This document shows, piece after piece, positions 47,073 to 58,273 of a stretch of DNA of 64,000 nt. The number at the start of each line of letters is the position of its first letter. Position 1 is the first letter of the stretch. The DNA is from Winogradskyella psychrotolerans RS-3 (lineage in GTDB: Bacteria; Bacteroidota; Bacteroidia; Flavobacteriales; Flavobacteriaceae). A program made the translations under genes and the position numbers. The notes beneath the pieces are model-generated. The model was given only the letters and a program-made list of their open reading frames with translations. It was not told the origin of the DNA and searched no databases. The stretch is taken from contig NZ_ATMR01000037.1 in the NCBI RefSeq assembly GCF_000427335.1, forward strand, positions 1 to 64,000. Direction: 5' to 3'.

Positions 47073-47552
47073 CTAATCTATGATTTTGATGTCAACAGAA
47101 GTTCTGCTTTGCCAACCTGTTTCATCGGTTACTGAATATGAGCAATGGTAATCTCCTGTGTCTATATCATCTGGGATAGTAATACTGATGTTAATCTCAT
47201 AAGTTGTTAATCCTCCTTCGATTTCGAAATTTTCCATGTATATGAATGGATTTACGGCTCCTTTTAAAGATTCTAAATCACAAGTCTCTCCTTGGTCATC
47301 ATGAGTATGGTGATCAAAATTATGGTGAAGGTCTAAGCTATATGAAGCCACTACTTTGTTGTCTGCGACCTGTGCTTTAAAGATATAAGTTTCCCCTTTT
47401 AGGAGTTGTTCGCAAGCTTGCGGAAAACCTTCAGCGTAATTAATACTTATAGTAGGCTTTTCTTCATCAATAGTATTACTGTCGTCGCTAGAACATGAAG
47501 TAAAAAGTACTATCACTAAGATTAGATTAAAATATTTGGCAATCCATTTCAT
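47073..47552 (-). CDS. DUF4625 lipoprotein, single domain, His/Asp-rich loop
   Basis: The 159-residue lipoprotein (LVIVLFTSC followed by SSDDS) carries one DUF4625 beta-sandwich. A metal-ligand-like loop DLHHNFDHHTHDDQGETCD contains five His. Paired cysteines occur elsewhere (C47 region, DYHCSY). It follows a two-domain DUF4625 protein by 55 bases and ends the operon. The His-rich loop and the nearby Zur-like regulator suggest zinc binding on the cell surface or in the periplasm; this is inferred. Confidence 0.85.
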   Translation of the reverse strand: MKWIAKYFNLILVIVLFTSCSSDDSNTIDEEKPTISINYAEGFPQACEQLLKGETYIFKAQVADNKVVASYSLDLHHNFDHHTHDDQGETCDLESLKGAVNPFIYMENFEIEGGLTTYEINISITIPDDIDTGDYHCSYSVTDETGWQSRTSVDIKIID

Positions 47553-47607
47553 GGTAAAAAGTTTGAAACCGCATAGTATGTGCGATACTATGCGGAATAA
47601 TTAATGT

Positions 47608-48426
47608 TTAAGATGCTGTAACATCGATATGTGTTTCGTAAGATTTTGTGTTTCCATTTTCATCTTCAACAGTAAAAGTTATATGATATTCCCCTGCAGG
47701 TGCAGTTGCTGGGACATCAATATGCTCGTGGAATTCTACGTCTGTTAAGCCATGATAACCTTCTGAGAATATGATTTCAGAATCCCATTCTACTTCACCA
47801 GCACCAACAGGAAGACCGTGCGCATGGATATCTACTGTAATATTGTGAATGCCATTAAGTGCATTAATCATAAATTCAGCATGAAAATCGCTTCCTTTAG
47901 CTACAGCAGCATCTACAGAGAAACCACTTAATATGATGGAATCTAAAATCTCTAAATGACCTTCTATTTCTGTGCTATTTCCAAGCTCGTCAATAACAGT
48001 TAATTCAATGTGGTATTCACCAGAAGGAATATTAGTTGGTACATCTACATGTTCATGAAATGTAGGATTGATGACTTGATAATTACTCCCTGAGTATTCT
48101 TGGAAAAAATCCCACTCAACTTCACCATCAGCTAGAGGTAAATCGTGAGCATGGATCGAAAGCGTAATACTACTGACCACAGCTTCTGCATTTAATTCGG
48201 CTTCTAAATGAATGTCTGATCCTTTAAAAGCAACCTGATCTGTAGAGTGTACGCTGCCTTCCCCATATTCAAAATTCGTTATTTCTGGTGCATTAAGACT
48301 AGGAGAACTAGCGTCATCATCACTGCTACATGAGTTTAAAAGGATTCCGAAAAACGCGATAAGCGCTAAAAATTTAAAATTTGATTTCATAAGTTTTGTT
48401 TTTGTGTTCATAATGGTTGTTTTCAT
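47608..48426 (-). CDS. DUF4625 lipoprotein, two tandem domains
   Basis: The lipoprotein signal (FLALIAFFGILLNSC then SSDDDASS) may start at 48426, or at in-frame ATGs 48408 or 48390; the last gives the most compact signal. Two DUF4625 repeats follow (about residues 45-160 and 165-270), each with IHAHDLPLADGEVEWD or IHAHGLPVGAGEVEWD and a FHEH(V/I)DVP motif. Repeated His-x-His and HEH groups look like metal sites. The gene lies 23 bases after the TonB receptor gene. Together with the next gene it supplies three DUF4625 modules. Confidence 0.85.
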   Translation of the reverse strand: MKTTIMNTKTKLMKSNFKFLALIAFFGILLNSCSSDDDASSPSLNAPEITNFEYGEGSVHSTDQVAFKGSDIHLEAELNAEAVVSSITLSIHAHDLPLADGEVEWDFFQEYSGSNYQVINPTFHEHVDVPTNIPSGEYHIELTVIDELGNSTEIEGHLEILDSIILSGFSVDAAVAKGSDFHAEFMINALNGIHNITVDIHAHGLPVGAGEVEWDSEIIFSEGYHGLTDVEFHEHIDVPATAPAGEYHITFTVEDENGNTKSYETHIDVTAS

Positions 48427-48449
48427 GGTTTATAAATTATTTATGGTTA

Positions 48450-50819
48450 TTAAAAGGATTGTGTGAGTGCTATAGAGATGTTTCTTCCGGCTTCTGGCAC
48501 ATCGATTAAGCGGTAAAAACTCGTATGGTCGTAATATTTAGTATTGAAGACGTTATTGAGTTTAAACTTTAATTCCAATGGTGTCTGAGTTTTAAAGACA
48601 TCGATTTGTGTGAGTAATGCCATGTTTAGGACCTGGTAGCCCTCTGTTTGTTCTTCTGGTGGTACAATGTCATCTTGTGCTGCCGTAATTCTGTAATCGG
48701 CCCTTAGTTGAGGTTGTTTAAAAAAGAGTGCATCTTTAAACTGATAGTTTGCAGAAAACAATCCGGATAATGGTGGAGAAAATGGAATAGTAAAACCTTC
48801 TTTGGGTCCACTGGTTTGTTTAGAGTAAACGTATTCAGCAGAAGCATCTAATTTTAAATTAGGAATAACACTTGTACTCGCTCTTAATTCTCCGCCTGCT
48901 CTAAAAACCTTGTTTTGTGTGTATTCGTAAATTTGTAAGGTCTCATAATAATTTGAAGTCGGATTCAGGTAGATAAAGTTTTCGAAAAAATTGACGAATG
49001 GACTAACTCCGATGCTAAAATCCTTTGTGGTGTGGTCGATATCAATATCTAATTGATAGGATTCTTCAGGATCTAAATTGAGATTACCTTGCTCATAGCG
49101 GTACATGTGATAATTCACGCCATCTGAAGCTAATTCATTAGGTAAAGGCATTCTAAAACTTTTTCCTGCGTTTATTTTAAAGGTGGTATTGTTTAGAATA
49201 TAACTTAAGCCTACAGAAGCACTCACATTTCCAAAATTGAGCGTTTTATCTTCAGCTCTTTGTAAATAGACATATGAGGTAGAACCGTTGGCATTATTAA
49301 TGGTGGAAGGGTACCAATCAAAATATGACTTGCTCTTTATTTGTCCAAAATCATAACGAACTCCAGCTAAAAGATGTAAATCTGAATTGATTTCAAACTG
49401 ATCAAAAGCAAAAGCACCAATCGTAAGTCGGGTGAATTCGGGTATTAAAAATCCCCAGCCGCCAATGTTGTTATCTTGAAATTCTAAATTAATACCGGCA
49501 ACGATATGATGATCATCATTTAACGTAAAGGCATCTTTTACATTTAGGGTCAATGTGTTTTTTTGAAAACTACGTTCCTTGCTATTTGAAGGTGTTGGCA
49601 TATAACCGTGCGGTATTGGCTCGGAATGCTCCTCTCTTAAATTATTTTGAAAACCGAAATCGAGATTAATACTGTGCTTATCTAAAGCTATCGACGTATT
49701 ATTAGTAATTTTAAAATGGTTCACTTTATGATAAGGTAGATCAATATCTCTATTAGACTGGTCGTAATCAATGCGCGATGTTCTCACTTCTAAACCATGG
49801 GCATTAGCGAAAAAGCCATTTTTAGCATTGACGTTGCTCATTGTAGTTTCTGTCGTTAAACGATTTGAAATATACCCGACACTTATACTAGCGTTAGCTT
49901 CTTTTCCTGCGGTGTTACGTAGATTATTGTCGTGTAGCGTAAAAATGTAATTTTCGTAATTTATTTGGTCTGTAGGAACTTTATAATCGCCATAATCTCT
50001 ATAGGTGACGCGTCCATGGTAAAACCATTTCTCTTTTCTGGCTTGGATTCCTGCTGAAATACCTAATAAATCATTGTTGCTTTCTCCTAAGACATTCACT
50101 TCACCACTAAAGGAATTTGCAAGTGGTATTTTATTCGGTTGAATATCTACAACACCAGCAATAGCATCAGAACCATAAACCAAAGAAGCTGGTCCTTTTA
50201 CAATCTGAATATTTTCAATGCCATATTGGTCTATTTCTAAACCATGATCATTTCCCCATTGTTGTGCTTCGTGTTTTATACCATTTTGAACCACAGCAAC
50301 TCTATTAAATCCTAAACCTCGAATGACAGGTTTAGATTGTCCGGAGCCAATTTTAATAGTACTTACACCCGGAATTTTACTTAGGGTTTGCATCAAGCTA
50401 TTTTCTCTATTGCTAGTAAGAAATTCTTTGGAGACCAATTGAGAAACGACAGGCGATTCTTTATGTTCTCTCTTTTTAGTTTTTCCGTTGACCTTTATTT
50501 CGTTGAGTTCGGTGGTAGATTCCTCTAATAAAATTTTAAGGTTTTCGTTATTTGAGCTTGCTTTTATAGTGATTGTTTTAGAAGCGTAACCTAAATGCGA
50601 AATCGTAAAGGAGTAGGTACCTTCAGCAACATTAGGAATGGTGAATGTTCCTGAAGGAGATGAAATCGCATGAAGATTTTCGCCATTAATAGTGGCGCCT
50701 TCGATGGGTTGTAAAGTGTTTTGGCTTATTACGGATCCTTTTATTTGAAAAGAATTCTGTGCAATAGCGATTGTGCTTAGGCTAAAAAATAGCCATAAGC
50801 TCAGGGTTTTGTATAACAT
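48450..50819 (-). CDS. TonB-dependent receptor, probable zinc (ZnuD-like)
   Basis: Starting at ATG 50819 gives a clean signal peptide (MLYKTLSLWLFFSLSTIAIA) and 789 residues. An N-terminal carboxypeptidase-regulatory domain (about 25-110) precedes the plug (IPGVSTIKIGSGQSKPVIRG, GPASLVYGSDAIAGVVDI) and the barrel, which ends AGRNISIALTQSF. The plug-barrel resembles ZnuD-type receptors, with a His-bearing loop EEHSEPIPHGYMP. The DUF4625 neighbours, MerC-like gene and divergent Fur-family regulator support metal, most likely zinc. No experiment here separates zinc from other metals. Confidence 0.82.
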   Translation of the reverse strand: MLYKTLSLWLFFSLSTIAIAQNSFQIKGSVISQNTLQPIEGATINGENLHAISSPSGTFTIPNVAEGTYSFTISHLGYASKTITIKASSNNENLKILLEESTTELNEIKVNGKTKKREHKESPVVSQLVSKEFLTSNRENSLMQTLSKIPGVSTIKIGSGQSKPVIRGLGFNRVAVVQNGIKHEAQQWGNDHGLEIDQYGIENIQIVKGPASLVYGSDAIAGVVDIQPNKIPLANSFSGEVNVLGESNNDLLGISAGIQARKEKWFYHGRVTYRDYGDYKVPTDQINYENYIFTLHDNNLRNTAGKEANASISVGYISNRLTTETTMSNVNAKNGFFANAHGLEVRTSRIDYDQSNRDIDLPYHKVNHFKITNNTSIALDKHSINLDFGFQNNLREEHSEPIPHGYMPTPSNSKERSFQKNTLTLNVKDAFTLNDDHHIVAGINLEFQDNNIGGWGFLIPEFTRLTIGAFAFDQFEINSDLHLLAGVRYDFGQIKSKSYFDWYPSTINNANGSTSYVYLQRAEDKTLNFGNVSASVGLSYILNNTTFKINAGKSFRMPLPNELASDGVNYHMYRYEQGNLNLDPEESYQLDIDIDHTTKDFSIGVSPFVNFFENFIYLNPTSNYYETLQIYEYTQNKVFRAGGELRASTSVIPNLKLDASAEYVYSKQTSGPKEGFTIPFSPPLSGLFSANYQFKDALFFKQPQLRADYRITAAQDDIVPPEEQTEGYQVLNMALLTQIDVFKTQTPLELKFKLNNVFNTKYYDHTSFYRLIDVPEAGRNISIALTQSF

Positions 50820-51069
50820 AATATGATACAATAAGATTTGTGAGATTCGTCAAACGGACGATCCATTATAAAATCTATTTGGTTTGAATGAAATCGGGTT
50901 TTCTATAACGAATCAAATGATTTAAATAGTTAAAGTTTTAGAACTTCACTATAGATGAAAACGTCTAAACGCATTAAATCATGGGGTCTCTGAGTATCTC
51001 GATATTGAAGCGCATAATTCTAAAAATGGAACTAATGCTTCAAAAGCTAAAAGGTATATAGAGAGAGAC

Positions 51070-51363
51070 TTATAGCAAAAAGGGAGGAGGTCTAGACAGT
51101 AGTTGACTAGAAGTAATCGTCTTAGGAGTTACAAAACTGTAAGCGTTAAAGTTGTCTCTAACGATGACCAATTCTGTGTTTTCAATGTAAAACTCTTGTG
51201 TCTCTGGAGTTAGGATAGGTGTTACGTTATTAATTGTAGCATAATCACAAACCTCACAATGTAAATCTTGCTCCTTATCCTCATCGTGAGTTAAGGCGTG
51301 AAGCCCAACCATTTTTAAGGAAAGAAAAAGAATAATAAAGAAGTATGTGATGCTGTTTTTCAT
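51070..51363 (-). CDS. Small exported Cys/His protein, 97 residues
   Basis: The product has a signal peptide or anchor (ITYFFIILFLSLKMVGLHAL), then HDEDKEQDLHCEVCDYAT with an HCxxC group (H35, C36, C39), and ends RPPPFLL. I do not recognise the family. The metal-ligand-like cluster and place between the MerC-like gene and the zinc-type receptor suggest a metal-handling accessory protein. Its proline-rich end recalls the two small proteins at 54303 and 57908. Confidence 0.7.
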   Translation of the reverse strand: MKNSITYFFIILFLSLKMVGLHALTHDEDKEQDLHCEVCDYATINNVTPILTPETQEFYIENTELVIVRDNFNAYSFVTPKTITSSQLLSRPPPFLL

Positions 51364-51411
51364 TTAGTAATTAAAATATTTACGTTTTTAAATTTGTTTA
51401 GTAAGTTTTAA

Positions 51412-51801
51412 TTAGTGGTTTTGCTTAGTCGCTATGCGTAATAATTTCCAATTAGCATAATGTGCTAAAGCGAGTAACGTTGCCCCTATAACCGTATTAC
51501 TAACCTCCCATAAATTTGTGAAGTGAAGTCTGCCTATAGCTATAAATAAAAACCCTAATAAAGCAATCTTTAAAGGTTTGGTTTTATAGTGAATTGTTTT
51601 ATAACTTGGCCAAAGCGAGGTTAATAAAAACACAATTCCTAAACTTATGAATACCCACTCAATGATTGGATTATTTAAAAAATATAAGCTACTCAATGAC
51701 GAAAACGAAAGTAAAATAGGGAATATAGCACAATGAATGGCACAAATTAATGAGCTTGAAAGTGCTATTATATCTAGGGTATTATTTTTTATTTTATTCA
51801 C
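51412..51801 (-). CDS. MerC-family membrane protein
   Basis: The 129-residue protein has four membrane segments and the MerC-like motif CAIHCAIFPILLSF in the first hairpin. MerC carries mercuric ion in mercury-resistance operons, but no mer genes are present here. In Bacteroidota, MerC-like genes often lie beside Fur-family regulators. It is first in the minus-strand operon, directly facing the regulator gene across paired TTGCAAT palindromes. A role in zinc transport or sensing is an inference. Confidence 0.82.
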   Translation of the reverse strand: MNKIKNNTLDIIALSSSLICAIHCAIFPILLSFSSLSSLYFLNNPIIEWVFISLGIVFLLTSLWPSYKTIHYKTKPLKIALLGFLFIAIGRLHFTNLWEVSNTVIGATLLALAHYANWKLLRIATKQNH

Positions 51802-51876
51802 TTTACTAAACGTTAAAGGATTTAAAAGCGACTATGTCGCATTATTAGGTTTTGCAAATATATTATTTATTTATAA

Positions 51877-51908
51877 TATTGCAATGTTGTTGCAATAAAT
51901 TATTGCAA
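51877..51908. promoter_or_regulatory. Overlapping palindromes, probable Zur/Fur operator
   Basis: Two overlapping inverted repeats lie between the divergent merC-like and regulator genes. TATTGCAA (51877-51884) pairs with TTGCAATA (51890-51897). TTGCAATAA (51890-51898) pairs with TTATTGCAA (51900-51908) around one central base. The 7-9 base arms with a short centre match the form of Fur-family boxes. The site ends 13 bases before the regulator ATG. Confidence 0.75.
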
Positions 51909-51921
51909 ATAAATCGCATTA

Positions 51922-52299
51922 ATGATGAAAAGAAGAAATACACCGACTAAAGAAGCCGTTTTAAGTGTTATTACTAAAGCCGGACAAGCCATGAGTCAGG
52001 ATGCGATTGAAGGCGAAATTTCTATTGATATCAATAGGGCAACAATCTATCGTGTGTTAAATCGTTTTTGTGAGGATGGTGTGTTGCACAAAGTTATTGC
52101 AGAAGATGGTAAACAGTATTTTGCTTTATGCGATGGTTGTGATAAAACACATCAAAAGCATCAACATTTTCATTTTAAATGTACGGTTTGTGAAACATTA
52201 GAATGTCTTCCTAATGAGGTTAATTTTTCAATCCCAAGAGGTTACCATGTAGAGAACGTAAATTGTGTTTTAACAGGAGTGTGTAAAAAGTGTTCTTAA
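51922..52299 (+). CDS. Fur-family metalloregulator, Zur-like
   Basis: The 125-residue protein has the winged helix (SQDAIEGEISIDINRATIYR) and metal sites: KTHQKHQHFHF supplies H77, H80, H82 and H84, and CxxC pairs are C87/C90 and C121/C124, the structural zinc site. It is shorter at the N-terminus than Fur. Its position divergent from a MerC-like/TonB/DUF4625 operon, with a palindromic operator between, suggests zinc-responsive autorepression. It overlaps the convergent MbnH-like gene end by four bases. Confidence 0.9.
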   Translation: MMKRRNTPTKEAVLSVITKAGQAMSQDAIEGEISIDINRATIYRVLNRFCEDGVLHKVIAEDGKQYFALCDGCDKTHQKHQHFHFKCTVCETLECLPNEVNFSIPRGYHVENVNCVLTGVCKKCS

Positions 52300-53321
52300 T
52301 CGTTAAAACCTAAAAACTCAGCATCACTCAAAGTCTTCATAAAAGCAATTAAATCTGTTTTTTCTTGAGTTGAAAGCGGTATTCTGTTGTTATTATCTTT
52401 TAAAATAGGATCTAAATTATCGGCTTCTAAAACACCAGTATCTAAATAATTGAGCACATCTTCTAATGTTGCAAATTGTCCGAAGCTGCCGTAAGGAGCA
52501 GTAAATTCTATATTTCTTAAACTAGGCACTCTAAAACGCATATAATCTTCAACAAGACCTGTAATTCTTGTGCGTCCGCCTTCTTCGGGATCCGGATTTA
52601 TAGGGAATCCAATATTTCTAAAACTTTGATCCGTGAATAATTCTGTACTATGACAGCTGATACATTTATCTTGAAAAACAGCATAACCTTGTGCTTCACT
52701 TGTTGTAAATGTTTCACCTTCATTGCGTTTTACTTTATCGTATTTACTGTTTGCCGAAATTAAGGTGTATTCATATTGTGCAATACTATTATAAATACCA
52801 TCAGCGGTAATACCTTCACCTTCAAATGCCTTATTAAAAAGCTCTATATAAGATGGATCTGTTTCAAGTTTACCTATCACTTCTAAAATTGAAGAATCCA
52901 TTTCTTCATGTGTTATAATAGGCACTAGTGGCTGATCTTCTAATTGAAGTTTATTACCATCCCAATTATAAAACTGCATAAACGCCATGTTTTGAACAGG
53001 TGGCGCATTACGAAGTCCTATGCGTCCTTCAATACCGATTCCCTTAGGGTTATGATCCGCAAAAGCACTTTCTTGAATATGGCAACTAGAGCACGAAATC
53101 GTATTATCTGTACTTAAACGTACATCAGTAAATAGTTTTTTCCCTAATTCAACACCAAATTCTGTAGGTATATTGGTGTAAAATGAACTGTTTAGTTCAG
53201 GGAAATCACTAGGAATATTTAATGACACCTCAGGATTGCTATAAGAAACAAGCTCTGAATCATCGTTATTACAACTCGTAATTAGTAATACTATAGCGAT
53301 ATGTCGTATGAGTTTTTTCAT
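52296..53321 (-). CDS. MbnH-like di-haem cytochrome c peroxidase family protein
   Basis: The start at 53321 gives a lipoprotein signal (MKKLIRHIAIVLLITSC then NNDDSE) and 341 residues. Two haem c sites are visible: CSSCH (77-81) and CISCH (220-224). The body matches bacterial di-haem peroxidases (GVELGKKLFTDVRLS, RNAPPVQNMAFMQFYNWDG, MRFRVPSLRNIEFTAPY). MbnH proteins of this family oxidise a tryptophan to kynurenine in their partner MbnP. An MbnP-like gene lies directly upstream, which makes that role likely, although a peroxidase role cannot be excluded. Confidence 0.82.
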   Translation of the reverse strand: MKKLIRHIAIVLLITSCNNDDSELVSYSNPEVSLNIPSDFPELNSSFYTNIPTEFGVELGKKLFTDVRLSTDNTISCSSCHIQESAFADHNPKGIGIEGRIGLRNAPPVQNMAFMQFYNWDGNKLQLEDQPLVPIITHEEMDSSILEVIGKLETDPSYIELFNKAFEGEGITADGIYNSIAQYEYTLISANSKYDKVKRNEGETFTTSEAQGYAVFQDKCISCHSTELFTDQSFRNIGFPINPDPEEGGRTRITGLVEDYMRFRVPSLRNIEFTAPYGSFGQFATLEDVLNYLDTGVLEADNLDPILKDNNNRIPLSTQEKTDLIAFMKTLSDAEFLGFND

Positions 53322-53342
53322 GAAAAAATAGTATGAAACTAG

Positions 53343-53382
53343 TAAAAAGAGTCGGCTAGAGGTAGGCCTCATAGCCGACTCA
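53343..53382 (-). terminator. Hairpin between the MbnP-like and MbnH-like genes
   Basis: A 10-bp stem GAGTCGGCTA (53349-53358) with TAGCCGACTC (53372-53381) is followed on the minus strand by five T. It lies 13 bases after the MbnP-like stop and 22 bases before the MbnH-like start, so it may act as a partial terminator that lowers mbnH-like expression, or as an RNA processing site. Confidence 0.75.
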
Positions 53383-53394
53383 TTAATTTTAGAT

Positions 53395-54261
53395 TTAGTT
53401 TTCTACAGATGTAATAGAAAACATTCCTGTAACATCTGTTGTACCGTTACCTCCAATATTCTCTACAAACTTCATCATTTCAGTAGCTGTATGAGCACTT
53501 GGTGTTGCGTTGTTAGTTATATCTTCAGTTGAAACCAACGTTACTGTGTGGCTATTTCCACTTAATAAATAATCAAAATCTGCATTAATAGCAATTGTTG
53601 GTGCACTATTACCAACAGTTGCAGTAGCAGGTAAGCTTAGTGTAATATCTCTATAAGCATCAACTCCTTGTGTATAATTTTCTTCGTCACCTTCTAAGGT
53701 GCTTCCAGAATGGAAAGACAATTCTTTATTATCTGTATCATAGAAGCCTTCAATTTTAGTAAAACGGTATCCTGTTCCCCATTCCCAATGCATTTCAGTA
53801 TCATTTGATCCTGCGTTATCATAAAACGTTGGGAAACTAACTTGGTCTAAGGTATTTAAGTCTGATCTTACACCTAAACCAAATTTGATTTCCGTGTAAT
53901 CTCCAACAGGAATATCACTTAAAACGTAGCTTAAAGTCTCTGGTTTTGCTTGGTTAACCACCGTTGCGCCTGTATCTAAATTGTTGACGTTATAAGGAAT
54001 TTCAGTACCATCAGCTTTTATAAGACGAATGTTACTGACTACGTATTTTAATTCAGAAAAATGGTGAACTTGTCCTGCATCCGAAGTATTAACGGTAGCT
54101 TCTGCAGAAGTTGCTGCACCAAGAACAATAGGCGTACTGTTAAATGTATTGCTGAATTCTAAAGTCACATTGTTTGCTACGCGGTTGTCGTCATCAGAAC
54201 TACAAGACATAAAAGCAACAAGTACTGCTGCTGATAAAATATATTTTTTAAGATTTTTCAT
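53395..54261 (-). CDS. MbnP-like copper-associated lipoprotein
   Basis: The 288-residue lipoprotein (AAVLVAFMSC, C20, then SSDDDN) has the MbnP family pattern: HHFSELKYVVSNIRLIKADG, FGLGVRSDLNT, and the signature MHWEWGTGYRFTKIEG (M157-G172). In methanotrophs MbnP is the partner of MbnH and binds copper through a site that includes kynurenine made from one of its tryptophans. W159 or W161 are candidate targets. It is followed by the MbnH-like gene. Confidence 0.85.
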   Translation of the reverse strand: MKNLKKYILSAAVLVAFMSCSSDDDNRVANNVTLEFSNTFNSTPIVLGAATSAEATVNTSDAGQVHHFSELKYVVSNIRLIKADGTEIPYNVNNLDTGATVVNQAKPETLSYVLSDIPVGDYTEIKFGLGVRSDLNTLDQVSFPTFYDNAGSNDTEMHWEWGTGYRFTKIEGFYDTDNKELSFHSGSTLEGDEENYTQGVDAYRDITLSLPATATVGNSAPTIAINADFDYLLSGNSHTVTLVSTEDITNNATPSAHTATEMMKFVENIGGNGTTDVTGMFSITSVEN

Positions 54262-54302
54262 TTTTAAATTTGTAATAATTGGTAATTTGTTTTTAAATAA
54301 TA

Positions 54303-54689
54303 TTAAGTGCGATTAAAACCCTGTGTATATATTGGCGGTGGTACCAGGATTTCTAAATAGGGTTCGGTATGCTGAAATTCTTTATAAATCACCAACTCTC
54401 GCTTCTTTGAGATTTTTGGAATTTTTAATTCAATTTCGAAATTTGAACTGAATGCCAAATCGAAATTTCTTGTATTAATAATTTTTTCTGAAGGGCTATC
54501 TTCGGTTTCTTGTAATTCTTTCGTTAAATGACATTTACCATTACATTGTAGTTCTGGTTTGCTTTTATTGATACAAAATTGTTCTATAATGGCTTGTTGG
54601 TTGAGTTTAAAGTTCATAATAACGACGGCTTGCTGCGAAACAACAAACAGAAATATAAAGGTCATTATGAAACTAAAAACACTGCGCAT
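54303..54689 (-). CDS. Small exported CX9CX3C protein (copy 1)
   Basis: The 128-residue protein has an N-terminal signal or anchor (VFSFIMTFIFLFVVSQQ). C39, C49 and C53 form a CX9CX3C motif in FCINKSKPELQCNGKCHLT, with KEL after it, and the C-terminus has VPPPIYTQGFNRT. The same core recurs in the protein at 57908. I know no assigned function for this family. It sits 4 bases after the OprC-like receptor gene and 41 bases before the MbnP-like gene, so a copper-handling accessory is a reasonable inference. Confidence 0.75.
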   Translation of the reverse strand: MRSVFSFIMTFIFLFVVSQQAVVIMNFKLNQQAIIEQFCINKSKPELQCNGKCHLTKELQETEDSPSEKIINTRNFDLAFSSNFEIELKIPKISKKRELVIYKEFQHTEPYLEILVPPPIYTQGFNRT

Positions 54690-54693
54690 CTCT

Positions 54694-56682
54694 TTAGAAA
54701 TTGAATTTTAAAGAAGTGAAAATATTACGTCCCATTCTCGGAATGTTTCCCCAATCGGCATACGTGCTGTAATATTCATTCAATACATTTTCAGCACCAA
54801 CTTGCACGACGGTTTTATAGTCTTTAATGCGGAAGGTGTAATCTGCAGATAAATTCCAAATGGTATAAGACGGTGTTTGGTCTTCACCATATTCTGGACT
54901 GTAATGGATTTGTTCTAAATCTCCATTTATCGATGTTTGAAAACTTAGTTTATGATACTGATAATGAAGTGCTGTTTGATAACTTAAAGGTCTAATAAAC
55001 GGTAAGTTGCTTTCGTTTTCGTCCTTTCCACGTGCGTAAGTTAGAACCCCTTTCCAATGTAAATTATCTAAAATTGAATAACTTCCATTCAGTGAGAAAT
55101 TGAATAACGTTGAATAATCCAAAGACGTGTAGCCTTTAACACCAATAGATTGATAGTTCATTGGGCTACCTAAACTTAAAATTCTACCAATAATATAATT
55201 CTCAATGTAGAAATAATTCACATTAGCTTGAATACTAAATTTATCATCTTTATAACCAGCACTGGCGTTGCCTTCGTATGATATTTCGTTATCAAGATCA
55301 GGGTTTCCAATATAATCGTAACGATCAAAACTATTATAAATGTAATAGCCATAGCCTTCGGAAACCGATGGTGCTCTGTGACCGTAACCACCTCCTACAG
55401 AAAAATTAAATTTATTGATGTTTAATTGATAACCTGCGTGTAGGCTAGGGAGTAGTCTCGTTTTTTCTTGTGGTGTGCCTGGGTGAAATATCCAATTGAA
55501 TTCTACATATTTCGAATGGTTGTAATTGACTCCCAAAGAGCCACCAAAATTCAGTTGACTTTTCTCAGACATTTCCCAAGAATTGTTGATAGAAAGTCCG
55601 GCAAAAGTCGTCGTAACTCCAGGCCAACTGTAAGCAAACATGCTACGCTCGCTTCGGTCTTGAGGATACATGCGCATTTCGGCTGTAGATAAATTATTAT
55701 AAGCATTTAGCTGAATTTCAGAGCTAAAACGATTCTTTTTAATATTGGCTTTAGAGAGCAAACCATACGTGGTACTCCAGCCTGGCATATCCATATGGAC
55801 CAAGTTTTCAGGACGTGTGGTATCATCCATATAATGTTCAATAGCATTAAAATAAATCTTAGTATCTAAGGCTCTGAATAAACCCTTTTCAAAGACTTGT
55901 TTGTATGTTGCTGAGGTAATTAAGGCACGCGATAACCATAAATCCATGGGTAACGCAGGATAGCCAACATCATTCGCTTGGTCATAGATTGCTTCTAACT
56001 TTACAGAAGATAACTCACTTGTTTTGTACGCTAAACCTAAAGACGCATTGAATTTGGTGAATTGTGAATGGTTAACATCATCATTATTTCCGTCCCTATA
56101 ATTTTCTGCGTTACGGAATGCTAAACTTCCATCTACGACAAATTTATCACCAGAATAGGAGGCATTCGCAAGGTTGAAAAACTGCTTATTATTAAATTCA
56201 AAACCTGTCTGGTAAGCACCATTCCATTGCTTTGATAAACCAAAAGGTGTGCTTTTTCGTTTTAAATCAATACTTCCGGCAACGGTTGCACCATGCATAT
56301 TACCTTCTTGCCCAGATTTAATATCAATCGCAGATAAATTATTACTCTCTACATATGAAGTTATAGGGTCCATTTTATCTGTACACGCACCAAAAACGTG
56401 CATACCGTCAATGGTTATTGTAGAGCGTTCCGAACTCATATTGTTTAGTAAAGGTTCCCAAGCATACGCACCGCGTTTAATGAAACTGATATTTTCTGAA
56501 GACGCTAAAAACTCATCAACAGAAACGGCCATTTTCATTTCCGTTTCAATCTTCTTTTTAACGACAGATATTAATTTTACTTCGCTGAGTGCTATAATGC
56601 TGTCTTTCTTTTTTTCTGTGTTTTGTGCCTGGACGAATAATCCTGCAAAAAGCAATAGTATAAGGGGTAGGAATTTCATCAT
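54694..56682 (-). CDS. TonB-dependent copper receptor, OprC/NosA-like
   Basis: The 662-residue receptor has a signal peptide (MMKFLPLILLLFAGLFVQAQ), a plug with FIKRGAYAWEPLLNNMSSER and DGMHVFGACTDKMDPITSY, and a barrel ending MGRNIFTSLKFNF. The CxxxM (C100, M104) in GACTDKM and HxM (H283, M285) in EHYMDD correspond to the copper ligands described for OprC, where a CxxxM-HxM site binds copper ions. MbnP/MbnH-like genes in the same operon agree with copper uptake. Length and motifs separate it from the zinc-type receptor at 48450. Confidence 0.85.
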   Translation of the reverse strand: MMKFLPLILLLFAGLFVQAQNTEKKKDSIIALSEVKLISVVKKKIETEMKMAVSVDEFLASSENISFIKRGAYAWEPLLNNMSSERSTITIDGMHVFGACTDKMDPITSYVESNNLSAIDIKSGQEGNMHGATVAGSIDLKRKSTPFGLSKQWNGAYQTGFEFNNKQFFNLANASYSGDKFVVDGSLAFRNAENYRDGNNDDVNHSQFTKFNASLGLAYKTSELSSVKLEAIYDQANDVGYPALPMDLWLSRALITSATYKQVFEKGLFRALDTKIYFNAIEHYMDDTTRPENLVHMDMPGWSTTYGLLSKANIKKNRFSSEIQLNAYNNLSTAEMRMYPQDRSERSMFAYSWPGVTTTFAGLSINNSWEMSEKSQLNFGGSLGVNYNHSKYVEFNWIFHPGTPQEKTRLLPSLHAGYQLNINKFNFSVGGGYGHRAPSVSEGYGYYIYNSFDRYDYIGNPDLDNEISYEGNASAGYKDDKFSIQANVNYFYIENYIIGRILSLGSPMNYQSIGVKGYTSLDYSTLFNFSLNGSYSILDNLHWKGVLTYARGKDENESNLPFIRPLSYQTALHYQYHKLSFQTSINGDLEQIHYSPEYGEDQTPSYTIWNLSADYTFRIKDYKTVVQVGAENVLNEYYSTYADWGNIPRMGRNIFTSLKFNF

Positions 56683-56684
56683 TA

Positions 56685-57611
56685 TTAGAATAATATATCG
56701 ATATATAGTTCGCTTCTTGCTCCTTCAATTCCTGGTGTGAATTCGGTAGATACTTCTGTGCCTTTTATAATTTCACCAAATTGGTTTTGCAACCTGAAAT
56801 TTAAAGTCCAGTTACCTGTCATAGTATAATTGACGATTCCATAGTACAAACCATCTTCTTGCTGAGTTAAATCTTCATTGTTTAAAGAGGAATGATTCCC
56901 CATTGAGGGTTCTGGCATTCTTGGATCTAATAATAAGGTGTAATCAGCAACTTCAGAATATGAAAACTGAGAAGCATCAGGAAAAGTATCAGCCTCATTA
57001 CTAGGTGGATTGTATGTGTAGATGCCTGCAACCAATTCATTTTGTGCAATTTTGGGTTTCTGTGGTGCTACTAAAGCTATAAAATATTGCTCACCATCAC
57101 TTCCTGTAAAGGAGGTCATGTTTAAATTCATATTAGTTTGCGCTTCTACAATAATATCTTGGTCAACCGTATACGTTTGGTCATTGTCGGTAAATGAGAG
57201 GTATAGTTTCCAGTTTTCTGAATCGGTACTTTCATTGGTGAAGACAGCGTAGCCAGAATAATAATCCTCTGTGGAATTATAATTTAAATTATAACGATGT
57301 GGACCCGAAGAATTATTACCATTATAATTAGTGCTAATAGGTAAGAATGTGATTTCTGACGTATTTAAACTTTCGTTAGTTTGAATGTTGGTAATTTTTA
57401 AACGGAAGTCATTGTAACCTTTATAGAAGGTTCCGTTTAAGGCTTCAATACTAATCTGATAGTCATTTTTAGTGAAGGAAATGACTTCGAGATATTCAAA
57501 ATGCTCTGTAACTATAGTGCTTATTTCAGATTCGTAATCGGTTTTATCTAGAGTACACGATGTAACCGCAACAAGAATTGCAGCCACGAGAAAAATGCTT
57601 TTCTTCATCAC
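56685..57611 (-). CDS. Lipoprotein with Met/His-rich YtkA/FixH-like segment
   Basis: The 308-residue lipoprotein (IFLVAAILVAVTSC, C19) leads the probable copper operon, ending two bases before the receptor gene. Residues about 230-280 (DPRMPEPSMGNHSSLNNED, then GLYYGIVNYTMTGNWTLNFR) resemble the YtkA/FixH-type beta-sandwich. That module often carries MP-x-MG-H residues and is found near copper or cytochrome oxidase genes. The rest is not recognised. Surface or periplasmic copper binding is an inference. Confidence 0.7.
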   Translation of the reverse strand: MMKKSIFLVAAILVAVTSCTLDKTDYESEISTIVTEHFEYLEVISFTKNDYQISIEALNGTFYKGYNDFRLKITNIQTNESLNTSEITFLPISTNYNGNNSSGPHRYNLNYNSTEDYYSGYAVFTNESTDSENWKLYLSFTDNDQTYTVDQDIIVEAQTNMNLNMTSFTGSDGEQYFIALVAPQKPKIAQNELVAGIYTYNPPSNEADTFPDASQFSYSEVADYTLLLDPRMPEPSMGNHSSLNNEDLTQQEDGLYYGIVNYTMTGNWTLNFRLQNQFGEIIKGTEVSTEFTPGIEGARSELYIDILF

Positions 57612-57907
57612 TTATAAGTGTTTTATTAAAAAAATAAGATGTAGCTGCAGCTATTTTAATACTTAAACGCTGTTTAGATAGTAACAACATTAGTATCAAA
57701 TTAAGTACGTAGAAAGACAGAAATTACTGTTAGTTTCGCTGCAAACGAGACGTAGAAACCTTGTCTATGTAGAATAGTAGATATACAGCAAAAGTGTTAG
57801 ATTATTAATTAGCTCTAATTAATGATCTATGGATGCAGTGCATAGCCTAATGATAAATCACTTAGCGACATACTAATTCTATAAGTTACAGAGGTTCTAT
57901 TTTAAAA
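57612..57907. other. Gene-free stretch with hairpins
   Basis: I see no gene here. A perfect AT-rich palindrome ATTAATTAG/CTAATTAAT (57804-57823, two-base centre) and a CTATG/CATAG hairpin just after it are the only structures. The promoter of the copper operon should lie near 57640. Confidence 0.45.
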
Positions 57908-58273
57908 TTAAGCGAGCGGAGGGTGGAAAATAAAATTCATAAAATTGAATTTATATATTTTATGATATGAAGTGTTTATTTTTGAATTTTCTTCTTTTAC
58001 GATACTATCTAAAGTATTAATAAAAATATCTTGAAAGAAAACAACTTGATGTTCCGTGGCAGAAGATTGGTTTTTATCGCTACTTTTTTCAGAATCGGAA
58101 GCCTTAGCTAATTCCTTTTTTAAATAGCATTTACCATTACAACCCATTTCTGGGGTTTCTTTGTTAACACAAAGCTCATTTTTAATGTAGTCATAAAAAG
58201 CAGCATACTCCACAAATGGAATCGTAGGTTTTAAAAGCATAAATAATGCTAAAAAGAGTGTCGCTGTTTTCAC
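57908..58273 (-). CDS. Small exported CX9CX3C protein (copy 2)
   Basis: The 121-residue protein has an N-terminal hydrophobic segment (ATLFLALFMLLKPTIPF) and C35, C45, C49 in LCVNKETPEMGCNGKCYLK, matching the protein at 54303 residue for residue in Cys spacing and in the NK..PE..CNGKC.L.KEL core. A Ser/Lys-rich middle and a HPPLA end follow. It stands alone upstream of the copper operon on the same strand. Function unknown; the shared motif suggests the same metal or thiol chemistry. Confidence 0.72.
   Translation of the reverse strand: MKTATLFLALFMLLKPTIPFVEYAAFYDYIKNELCVNKETPEMGCNGKCYLKKELAKASDSEKSSDKNQSSATEHQVVFFQDIFINTLDSIVKEENSKINTSYHKIYKFNFMNFIFHPPLA

Follow-up and report, generated by a model that had tools for sequence, protein, structure and literature searches.

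A copper operon of Winogradskyella psychrotolerans RS-3 with two candidate copper-sensing arrest leaders

Copper-sensing arrest leaders, the copper receptor OprC and the MbnP/MbnH pair are all known already. Here we compare them with a copper operon in a 64,000-nucleotide stretch of Winogradskyella psychrotolerans RS-3 (assembly GCF_000427335.1, contig NZ_ATMR01000037.1, positions 1 to 64,000; the window). Our analysis indicates that this is probably a copper-starvation uptake operon with two built-in copper-sensing arrest leaders, the small cysteine proteins CysS2 and CysS1. CruR of Bordetella is a DUF2946 protein heading a TonB-receptor operon, and copper on its CXXC motif relieves arrest at a C-terminal RAPP, upon which Rho ends transcription (PMC9426467). 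The CXXC-RAPP distance is 45 residues with little variation, and CruR-related operons carry OprC-type receptors, PepSY_TM, ScoC, PCuAC and MbnPH (PMC9426467). Arrest of CruR at two Pro codons was later reported in vitro, and a 2025 survey described copper-related RAPP/RGPP leaders in various lineages and reported none from Bacteroidota (PMC12992588). CutF of Rhodobacter has a CxxxC motif and a Pro-rich end, and there copper turns the target on; 5,334 CutF-like proteins have been published, 19% (unnormalised) of them from Bacteroidota, with TonB and PCuAC as common neighbours (PMC9973294). Small proteins with a C-terminal Pro, ending in NSP-stop or NAP-stop, are the predicted arrest leaders of secA and secDF in Bacteroidota (PMC10987492).

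The operon lies in a 4.34 Mb genome on the minus strand, from 58273 to 52296, and has six genes in the order CysS2, lipoprotein, receptor, CysS1, MbnP and MbnH. CysS2 (57908..58273, 121 aa) is the head gene, with a hydrophobic N-terminus, the motif C35-X9-C45-X3-C49 and the end IFHPPLA (Pro-Pro, PP, at 118-119). It is separated by 296 bp (57612..57907, from the gene coordinates) from the lipoprotein gene (56685..57611, 308 aa), whose product is the receptor's partner; this spacer has low sequence conservation and is the proposed site of the on/off decision. Then follow the OprC-like TonB-dependent copper receptor (54694..56682, 662 aa), CysS1 (54303..54689, 128 aa, with C39, C49 and C53 and the C-terminal sequence EPYLEILVPPPIYTQGFNRT), the MbnP-like lipoprotein (53395..54261) and the MbnH-like di-haem protein (52296..53372). 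The gaps from the lipoprotein to MbnH are 2, 4, 41 and 22 bp, the third being that between CysS1 and MbnP. A preliminary description, made from the DNA letters alone, had all six genes at the right coordinates and on the right strand, and the positions it gave for C100, M104, H283, M285 and W159/W161 are exact. It saw a surface copper-capture run that used the small cysteine proteins. The run stands as an outer-membrane copper-uptake operon, and the part given to the small proteins is not supported: their upstream place, invariant PP, narrow Cys-to-PP range and unconserved middle, and the open reading frames (ORFs) that share their tail and replace them elsewhere, argue for cis-acting leaders rather than parts of the capture system.

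The family to which both proteins belong, CysS, holds a constant position. For the order, we used 22 of the better receptor matches and fetched neither the weaker ones nor one at the edge of a contig; a CX9CX3C-type protein is upstream in all 21 loci uncut by a contig end (CX8CX3C in L038). A second set, the named loci, consists of the best 80 of 507 receptor matches, of which four (L078, L084, L096 and L112) were set aside for a contig start too close to the receptor. CysS is upstream of the receptor, on the same strand and within 2.6 kb, in 76 of the 76 evaluable loci. The lipoprotein gene sits between CysS and the receptor or ahead of the receptor in 67 of them, as in the window, behind the receptor in seven, and has no match nearby in two. 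CysS is upstream in those seven loci as well and so holds its place when the lipoprotein moves. In the window's own genome there are 35 TonB-receptor matches and only two CysS, both in the copper operon.

MbnP-MbnH lies downstream in 42 of the 80 named loci, and a CysS copy precedes MbnP in 16 of these 42 operons, two of the copies (L074 and L087) being fragments. The 17 full-length CysS1 sequences (16 from both locus sets and the window's) form one exclusive clade, separate from the other CysS, with a support of 0.94 in a midpoint-rooted tree of short sequences. A recent duplication of CysS2 was therefore rejected as the origin of CysS1, and the second leader appears to be ancient. Relatives in which it is missing or shortened suggest that it was lost repeatedly. 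The ORFs at the CysS1 position in L087 and L074 are 54 and 70 aa long, consistent with loss of the second leader. About 4.5 kb past the receptor start, L074 also has an ORF with the end FRPPSNFI, a CysS profile match that lacks the Cys motif and is possibly a decayed leader, and Flavobacterium loci have short ORFs after MbnH, including 84-aa ORFs in L059-L061 and L063.

We also profiled 296 genomes drawn from the phylum; this draw overlaps with the named loci in some genomes (for example, L094 is G087). CysS was found in 120 of them, more often in genomes with MbnP (55/77, Fisher p 5e-12) and in those with the receptor motif (23/34, Fisher p 3e-4), kinship being ignored in both tests. Placement was counted for 150 listed CysS places, out of more than 150, and for 98 MbnP places over the cut-off, three under it being excluded. 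CysS is within 1 kb upstream of 39 of these 98 MbnP places.

Alignment of 24 CysS sequences revealed only six invariant columns: C35, C45, G47, C49, P118 and P119. For spacing and conservation, the 200 of 203 CysS with both the motif and PP were thinned to 115 representatives sharing pairwise less than 50% identity in the 74 residues up to PP. Across these, conservation is strong at the Cys motif, drops to 0.1-0.4 bits in the middle and comes back near the tail, where aromatic residues at -15 (42%), -11 (48%) and -7 (55%) are followed by I/L/V at -3, F at -2, H/R/P/K at -1 and then PP. The third Cys is 62-74 residues from PP in 115/115, and the stretch past PP measures 1-27 residues. The first loop is variable, with CX8 and CX10 forms in named loci and CX6 forms in some genomes. 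In the window, CysS2 has the F(H/R)PP-type end and CysS1 has VPPP instead. Both pass the published CutF-like filters (<150 aa, PP within 15 residues of the C-terminus, a same-strand downstream gene within 1 kb), CysS2 being 121 aa long with 2 residues past PP and a gap of 296 bp, and CysS1 128 aa long with 9 residues past PP and a gap of 41 bp. CysS matches the CruR/CutF plan in its position, size and hydrophobic start, and in its Cys motif, the PP at its end and their spacing.

No function is given for the family in Pfam or NCBIfam. DUF6769 was considered and dropped, as it matched weakly in 3/24 CysS (best E 0.0036, under the cut-off), and the other single Pfam matches were chance-like. DUF2946 (PF11162) had no match among the 24 CysS at E up to 1; it is absent from the window's own genome, and of 148 phylum-draw genomes five have a match, two of them over the cut-off.

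Three Cys residues can bind Cu(I). The CX9CX3C proteins might then be mature periplasmic or membrane-anchored chaperones that take copper from the receptor, with a structural Pro-Pro, and both the constant linkage to the receptor and the hydrophobic N-terminus would suit that role (a hydrophobicity scan found one in 108/115 CysS representatives vs 81/238 control ORFs of 90-160 aa). We nevertheless regard this as unlikely. A chaperone would hardly be expected to have an unconserved middle alongside a Pro-Pro that is invariant in the 24 aligned sequences, and the predicted CysS structure is of low confidence past about residue 60 (mean pLDDT 65, the model itself being poor). CysS is always upstream in the 76 evaluable loci and not scattered in the operon, and elsewhere dissimilar Cys-rich ORFs with an equal tail substitute for it. 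A second alternative, that the tail serves degradation or sorting and is not an arrest motif, is improbable: a short tail past PP (often 2-4 residues of V, S, A or F) agrees with the report of Roy et al. that nonpolar C-termini favour degradation (PMC9426467), but such a signal would need neither a Cys distance of 62-74 residues nor a place ahead of an operon.

The replacement of CysS was assessed independently of its profile, on receptors found by an exact DNA pattern of the plug motif. This pattern gave 37 receptors in 34 of the 296 genomes, of which that in G040 was set aside for a contig start too close to the receptor. CysS is within 2.5 kb upstream in 24 of the 37, and 12 of the remaining 13 were read. 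Nine of these 12 have a dissimilar Cys/His-rich ORF with an F(H/R)PP end. In L248-L254 and L257 this ORF is 139-192 aa long, lies 58-222 bp upstream and ends in (I/V)FHPP plus 2-6 residues; in L255 the end is FRPP and a lipoprotein gene intervenes. The ORF of L258 shows a CysS-like motif (by motif, unscored), and its PP is farther from the end. All told, a leader-type ORF is ahead of 34 of the 36 evaluable OprC-type receptors of the draw. Pfam searches with six of the nine non-CysS leaders gave no match save one at chance level.

These replacements raise the possibility of a modular Bacteroidota arrest leader apart from DUF2946/RAPP, in which a common tunnel-end tail (aromatics every four positions, then I/V-F-H/R-P-P) would carry exchangeable Cys/His heads. 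It would stand before nearly every OprC-type receptor, sometimes as two in series that gate the receptor and MbnP-MbnH separately. We hold this view tentatively, at slightly less than an even chance, having lowered it a little from an even one because the CysS profile picks up two of the nine dissimilar heads with weak scores. A genome-wide DNA scan for the (I/V)F(H/R/Q)PP tail had hits in 156/296 genomes, and its reversed-pattern control was also frequent; the scan was discarded as evidence on its own. Nine of 30 tail-scan loci that were read have a called ORF of at least 40 aa bearing that end. L270 and L285 have small ORFs with one or no Cys and the ends IFQPPKI and VFRPPVA, 84-91 bp before genes that look RND-efflux-like by their first residues; these ORFs might be leaders that share the tail type and respond to other metals.

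For the window's operon we infer arrest, copper sensing, the direction of the switch, its readout and the Trp-to-kynurenine change in the following way. The receptor would take up copper via an OprC-type site, with the lipoprotein assisting, and MbnP, its WxW Trp modified by MbnH, would serve as a further envelope copper-binding protein. CysS2 and CysS1 would be threaded toward the periplasm while still ribosome-bound, with their three Cys as the copper sensor. This head, about 67 residues from PP, should have emerged from the ribosome and, provided that the chain is threaded, lie close to the inner membrane's outer face, while the tail, aromatic and of the F(H/R)PP type (in CysS1, VPPP), would sit in the ribosome tunnel and cause stalling at Pro-Pro. 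CysS2 would gate the lipoprotein and the receptor, and CysS1 would gate MbnP-MbnH: at low copper, a stall at PP of CysS2 would let expression continue into the former two, and a stall of CysS1 into the latter. With ample copper, the Cys-bound metal would pull or fold the chain and release the stall, and downstream expression would end.

Several points weigh against this reading. The sign of the switch is uncertain, because CutF works in the direction opposite to CruR. CysS has no RAPP, CXXC or DUF2946 match, and its link to CruR is by plan, not descent. The Pro-Pro counts, PP being in the last 15 residues of 92/96 CysS profile hits in named loci vs 3/238 control ORFs from these loci, and of 84/85 CysS in a second set, are partly circular since the CysS profile includes the PP columns (two of the four misses among the 96 are fragments and two have PP farther in). 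The spacer between CysS and the lipoprotein ranges from 0 to 433 bp, by longest-ORF starts, and has little sequence conservation (50% mean column identity in nine aligned relatives, clearest near the lipoprotein start); the readout may therefore differ between lineages. An excess of C over G on the coding strand (75/97 CysS, compared with 27/80 lipoprotein, 7/86 receptor-type and 50/238 control ORFs) fits a Rho site only weakly, and was rejected as proof of Rho. Among the 42 operons with MbnP-MbnH, 26 have no CysS copy ahead of MbnP, and for 86 of the 150 CysS places no receptor motif and no MbnP lies inside the limits applied. Two of the 12 receptor loci read, L247 and L256, have no leader-like ORF. 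None of the nine other leaders scores above 7.3 bits against the CysS profile, with L249 and L254 passing inclusion (E 0.0028 and 0.0084 in a nine-sequence hmmsearch), and some heads may be remote kin of CysS rather than exchanged. Their last Cys is 11-60 residues before PP, and the CysS spacing is not kept. By eye, the upstream ORF in L256 resembles an Rrf2-type regulator.

The preliminary description also assigned the operon to outer-membrane copper uptake through an OprC-like receptor, accompanied by an MbnP/MbnH pair, and this is supported. Among the best 80 of 507 matches, the nearest named relatives of the receptor are from Winogradskyella undariae (92% identity) and W. ludwigii (91%). 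A sequence comparison with solved structures finds OprC entries and no others for it at E up to 0.001 (E 8e-10). Its CTDKM (CxxxM; C100, M104) aligns over OprC CPNRM and its HYM (HxM; H283, M285) over HIM, which places the four residues in the columns of the OprC copper ligands C143, M147, H323 and M325 (PMC8610252). They are invariant in 23/23 receptors with identities to the window copy down to 20%. A search of the PDB by Foldseek with the receptor model (mean pLDDT 85.6) returned OprC for all of the top 28 matches (TM 0.80-0.83, E 6e-37), and the best structural alignment has Z 39.7 and an rmsd of 2.3 over 587 residues. From alignment and model, the receptor appears to work like OprC; it is kept out of the TIGR01778 equivalog because it scores 82.9 bits against a cut-off of 472.45. 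Its lipoprotein had been called Met/His-rich, a description that is weak as to composition (7 Met and 3 His in 308 aa) and fits better in that M232, M237 and H240 are unchanged across 13 relatives. A nosZ-type (nitrous oxide reductase) match is within 8 kb on the same contig for eight of the order-level receptor matches, four of them confirmed neighbours. The window's own genome has no nosZ-type match, so the copper client there is something else, and NosZ was rejected as client in this strain.

MbnP and MbnH are a real pair despite their sub-equivalog scores. MbnP is over the PF20243 cut-off (124.8 bits vs 27, E 5e-36) and under that of TIGR04052 (57.5 bits vs 140). W159 and W161 lie in HWEWGTGYRF, and WxW, here within WEWG, is kept in 70/70 matched relatives. 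MbnH has a CCP_MauG domain (E 1e-47) and two CxxCH haem motifs, CSSCH (94) and CISCH (237), and is under the TIGR04039 cut-off (195.3 bits vs 362.85); two haem motifs are present in 72/74 relatives. In known MbnP/MbnH pairs, MbnH converts a Trp of MbnP to kynurenine. Both proteins have lipoprotein-type N-termini with acidic residues next (SCSSDDD and SCNNDDS), and as such a start is a surface export signal in Bacteroidota, this suggests surface export. Methanobactin genes were not seen beside the operon; a search aimed at them was not made.

CysS also heads other genes. We picked 80 regions from the CysS places of the phylum draw (at least 150) and recognised no CysS ORF in four (L196, L221, L234 and L236). 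The next gene (first labelled or 100-aa) after 85 CysS belongs to MbnP/MbnH in 25 cases and to the receptor or lipoprotein in 19, is another CysS in two, is unlabelled in 38 and is missing in one. The scanned part of the 38 unlabelled cases includes a TonB receptor with PepSY_TM, SCO1 with PCuAC, a YHS-SCO1-superoxide dismutase run and a COX1 locus. TonB receptor plus PepSY_TM, SCO1, PCuAC and MbnPH are shared with the published clients of CruR. In L179, CysS is ahead of short YHS-domain, SCO1-like and Fe/Mn superoxide dismutase genes, and L180, L181, L185 and L186 have a similar CysS-headed run, recognised by matching lengths only. L195 and L204 have a tandem CysS pair before a single large gene (779 and 719 aa).

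The preliminary description drew a single island from 51070 to 58273. The left part of that interval, with a small His/Cys protein (51070), MerC (51412) and a Fur-family gene (51922), belongs to another unit (47073-51921), which further holds a ZnuD-like receptor and two DUF4625 proteins and looks zinc-related and separate from the copper operon. Its receptor has ZnuD as best NCBIfam match, at 158.7 bits and thus far below the cut-off of 950. The Fur-family gene (51922..52299) is on the plus strand, divergent from the zinc-type unit and convergent with MbnH, whose end it overlaps by 4 bp, and is not counted in the copper operon. Between it and MerC is the perfect 19-bp palindrome TTGCAATAAATTATTGCAA (51890..51908, plus strand), probably the operator of this neighbouring unit. 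The position of the Fur-family gene between the two units, the palindrome before MerC and the finding that ZnuD ranks directly after OprC among the solved structures resembling the copper receptor model could be taken to mean that the whole 47-58 kb is a single regulon of this gene, with zinc, or zinc and copper, as the metal. That is very improbable, as the mismatch-free palindrome occurs once in the genome and no site precedes CysS2 with up to 3 mismatches, the receptor retains its Cys/Met ligands, eight receptors are near a nosZ-type match, and CysS accompanies SCO1, PCuAC and MbnPH. Control of the copper operon by the Fur-family gene was accordingly rejected for lack of a matching palindrome before CysS2 and is retained only as this low-ranking rival. 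The small His/Cys protein (51070..51363, minus strand) ends in RPPPFLL, with 54 residues from its last Cys to PP; of the 119 genomes of the order, the window's and one more have a match to it, and a 97-aa ORF is in a like place in L055 and L056. Our guess is that it is a leader for the ZnuD-like receptor, ahead of which it stands.

Our searches of the open-licence literature gave no earlier account of the CX9CX3C family, of an F(H/R)PP tail with differing heads or of operons with two leaders; the published CutF-like list may already include the CX9CX3C family. If true, the leader reading would assign a regulatory function to the small CysS proteins, present in 120 of the 296 phylum-draw genomes, and it would fill the Bacteroidota gap among the copper-related RAPP/RGPP leaders of the 2025 survey (PMC12992588). 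Varied sensor heads on one tail type would offer a natural set for separating nascent-chain metal sensing from ribosome stalling. The tie between OprC-type uptake and MbnP/MbnH outside methanotrophs would make the role of the pair testable in tractable flavobacteria.

Compared with known systems, the receptor shares with OprC / NosA (TIGR01778) the CxxxM-HxM ligands in equivalent columns and a common fold, but has 17-19% identity to them in structural alignments and shares its operon with a lipoprotein and CysS. That MbnP/MbnH pairs also occur away from methanobactin operons, in some cases close to TonB receptors, was known by 2013 (PMC3621798). The pair here likewise has a PF20243 protein with WxW and an adjoining di-haem MauG-like partner, and differs in scoring below the TIGR04052 and TIGR04039 cut-offs, in the lipoprotein-type N-termini of both proteins and in the link to an OprC-like receptor and a CysS leader. 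With the secA/secDF leaders CysS has in common a small size, the phylum and a C-terminal Pro, whereas the clients of those leaders are protein-export genes and a metal motif goes unmentioned in the available part of that work. The CutF-like list resembles CysS in its Bacteroidota members and its TonB and PCuAC neighbours; CutF itself differs in its CxxxC, its stem-loop and its copper-induced oxidase expression. Like CruR, CysS is a small Cys protein before a TonB-receptor gene, with a C-terminal Pro-Pro, a narrow Cys-to-PP range and, in many members, a long gap. It differs from CruR in its CX9CX3C motif, in its F(H/R)PP-type or PPP ends, in a distance of about 67 residues compared with 45, and in the presence here of two leaders in one operon.

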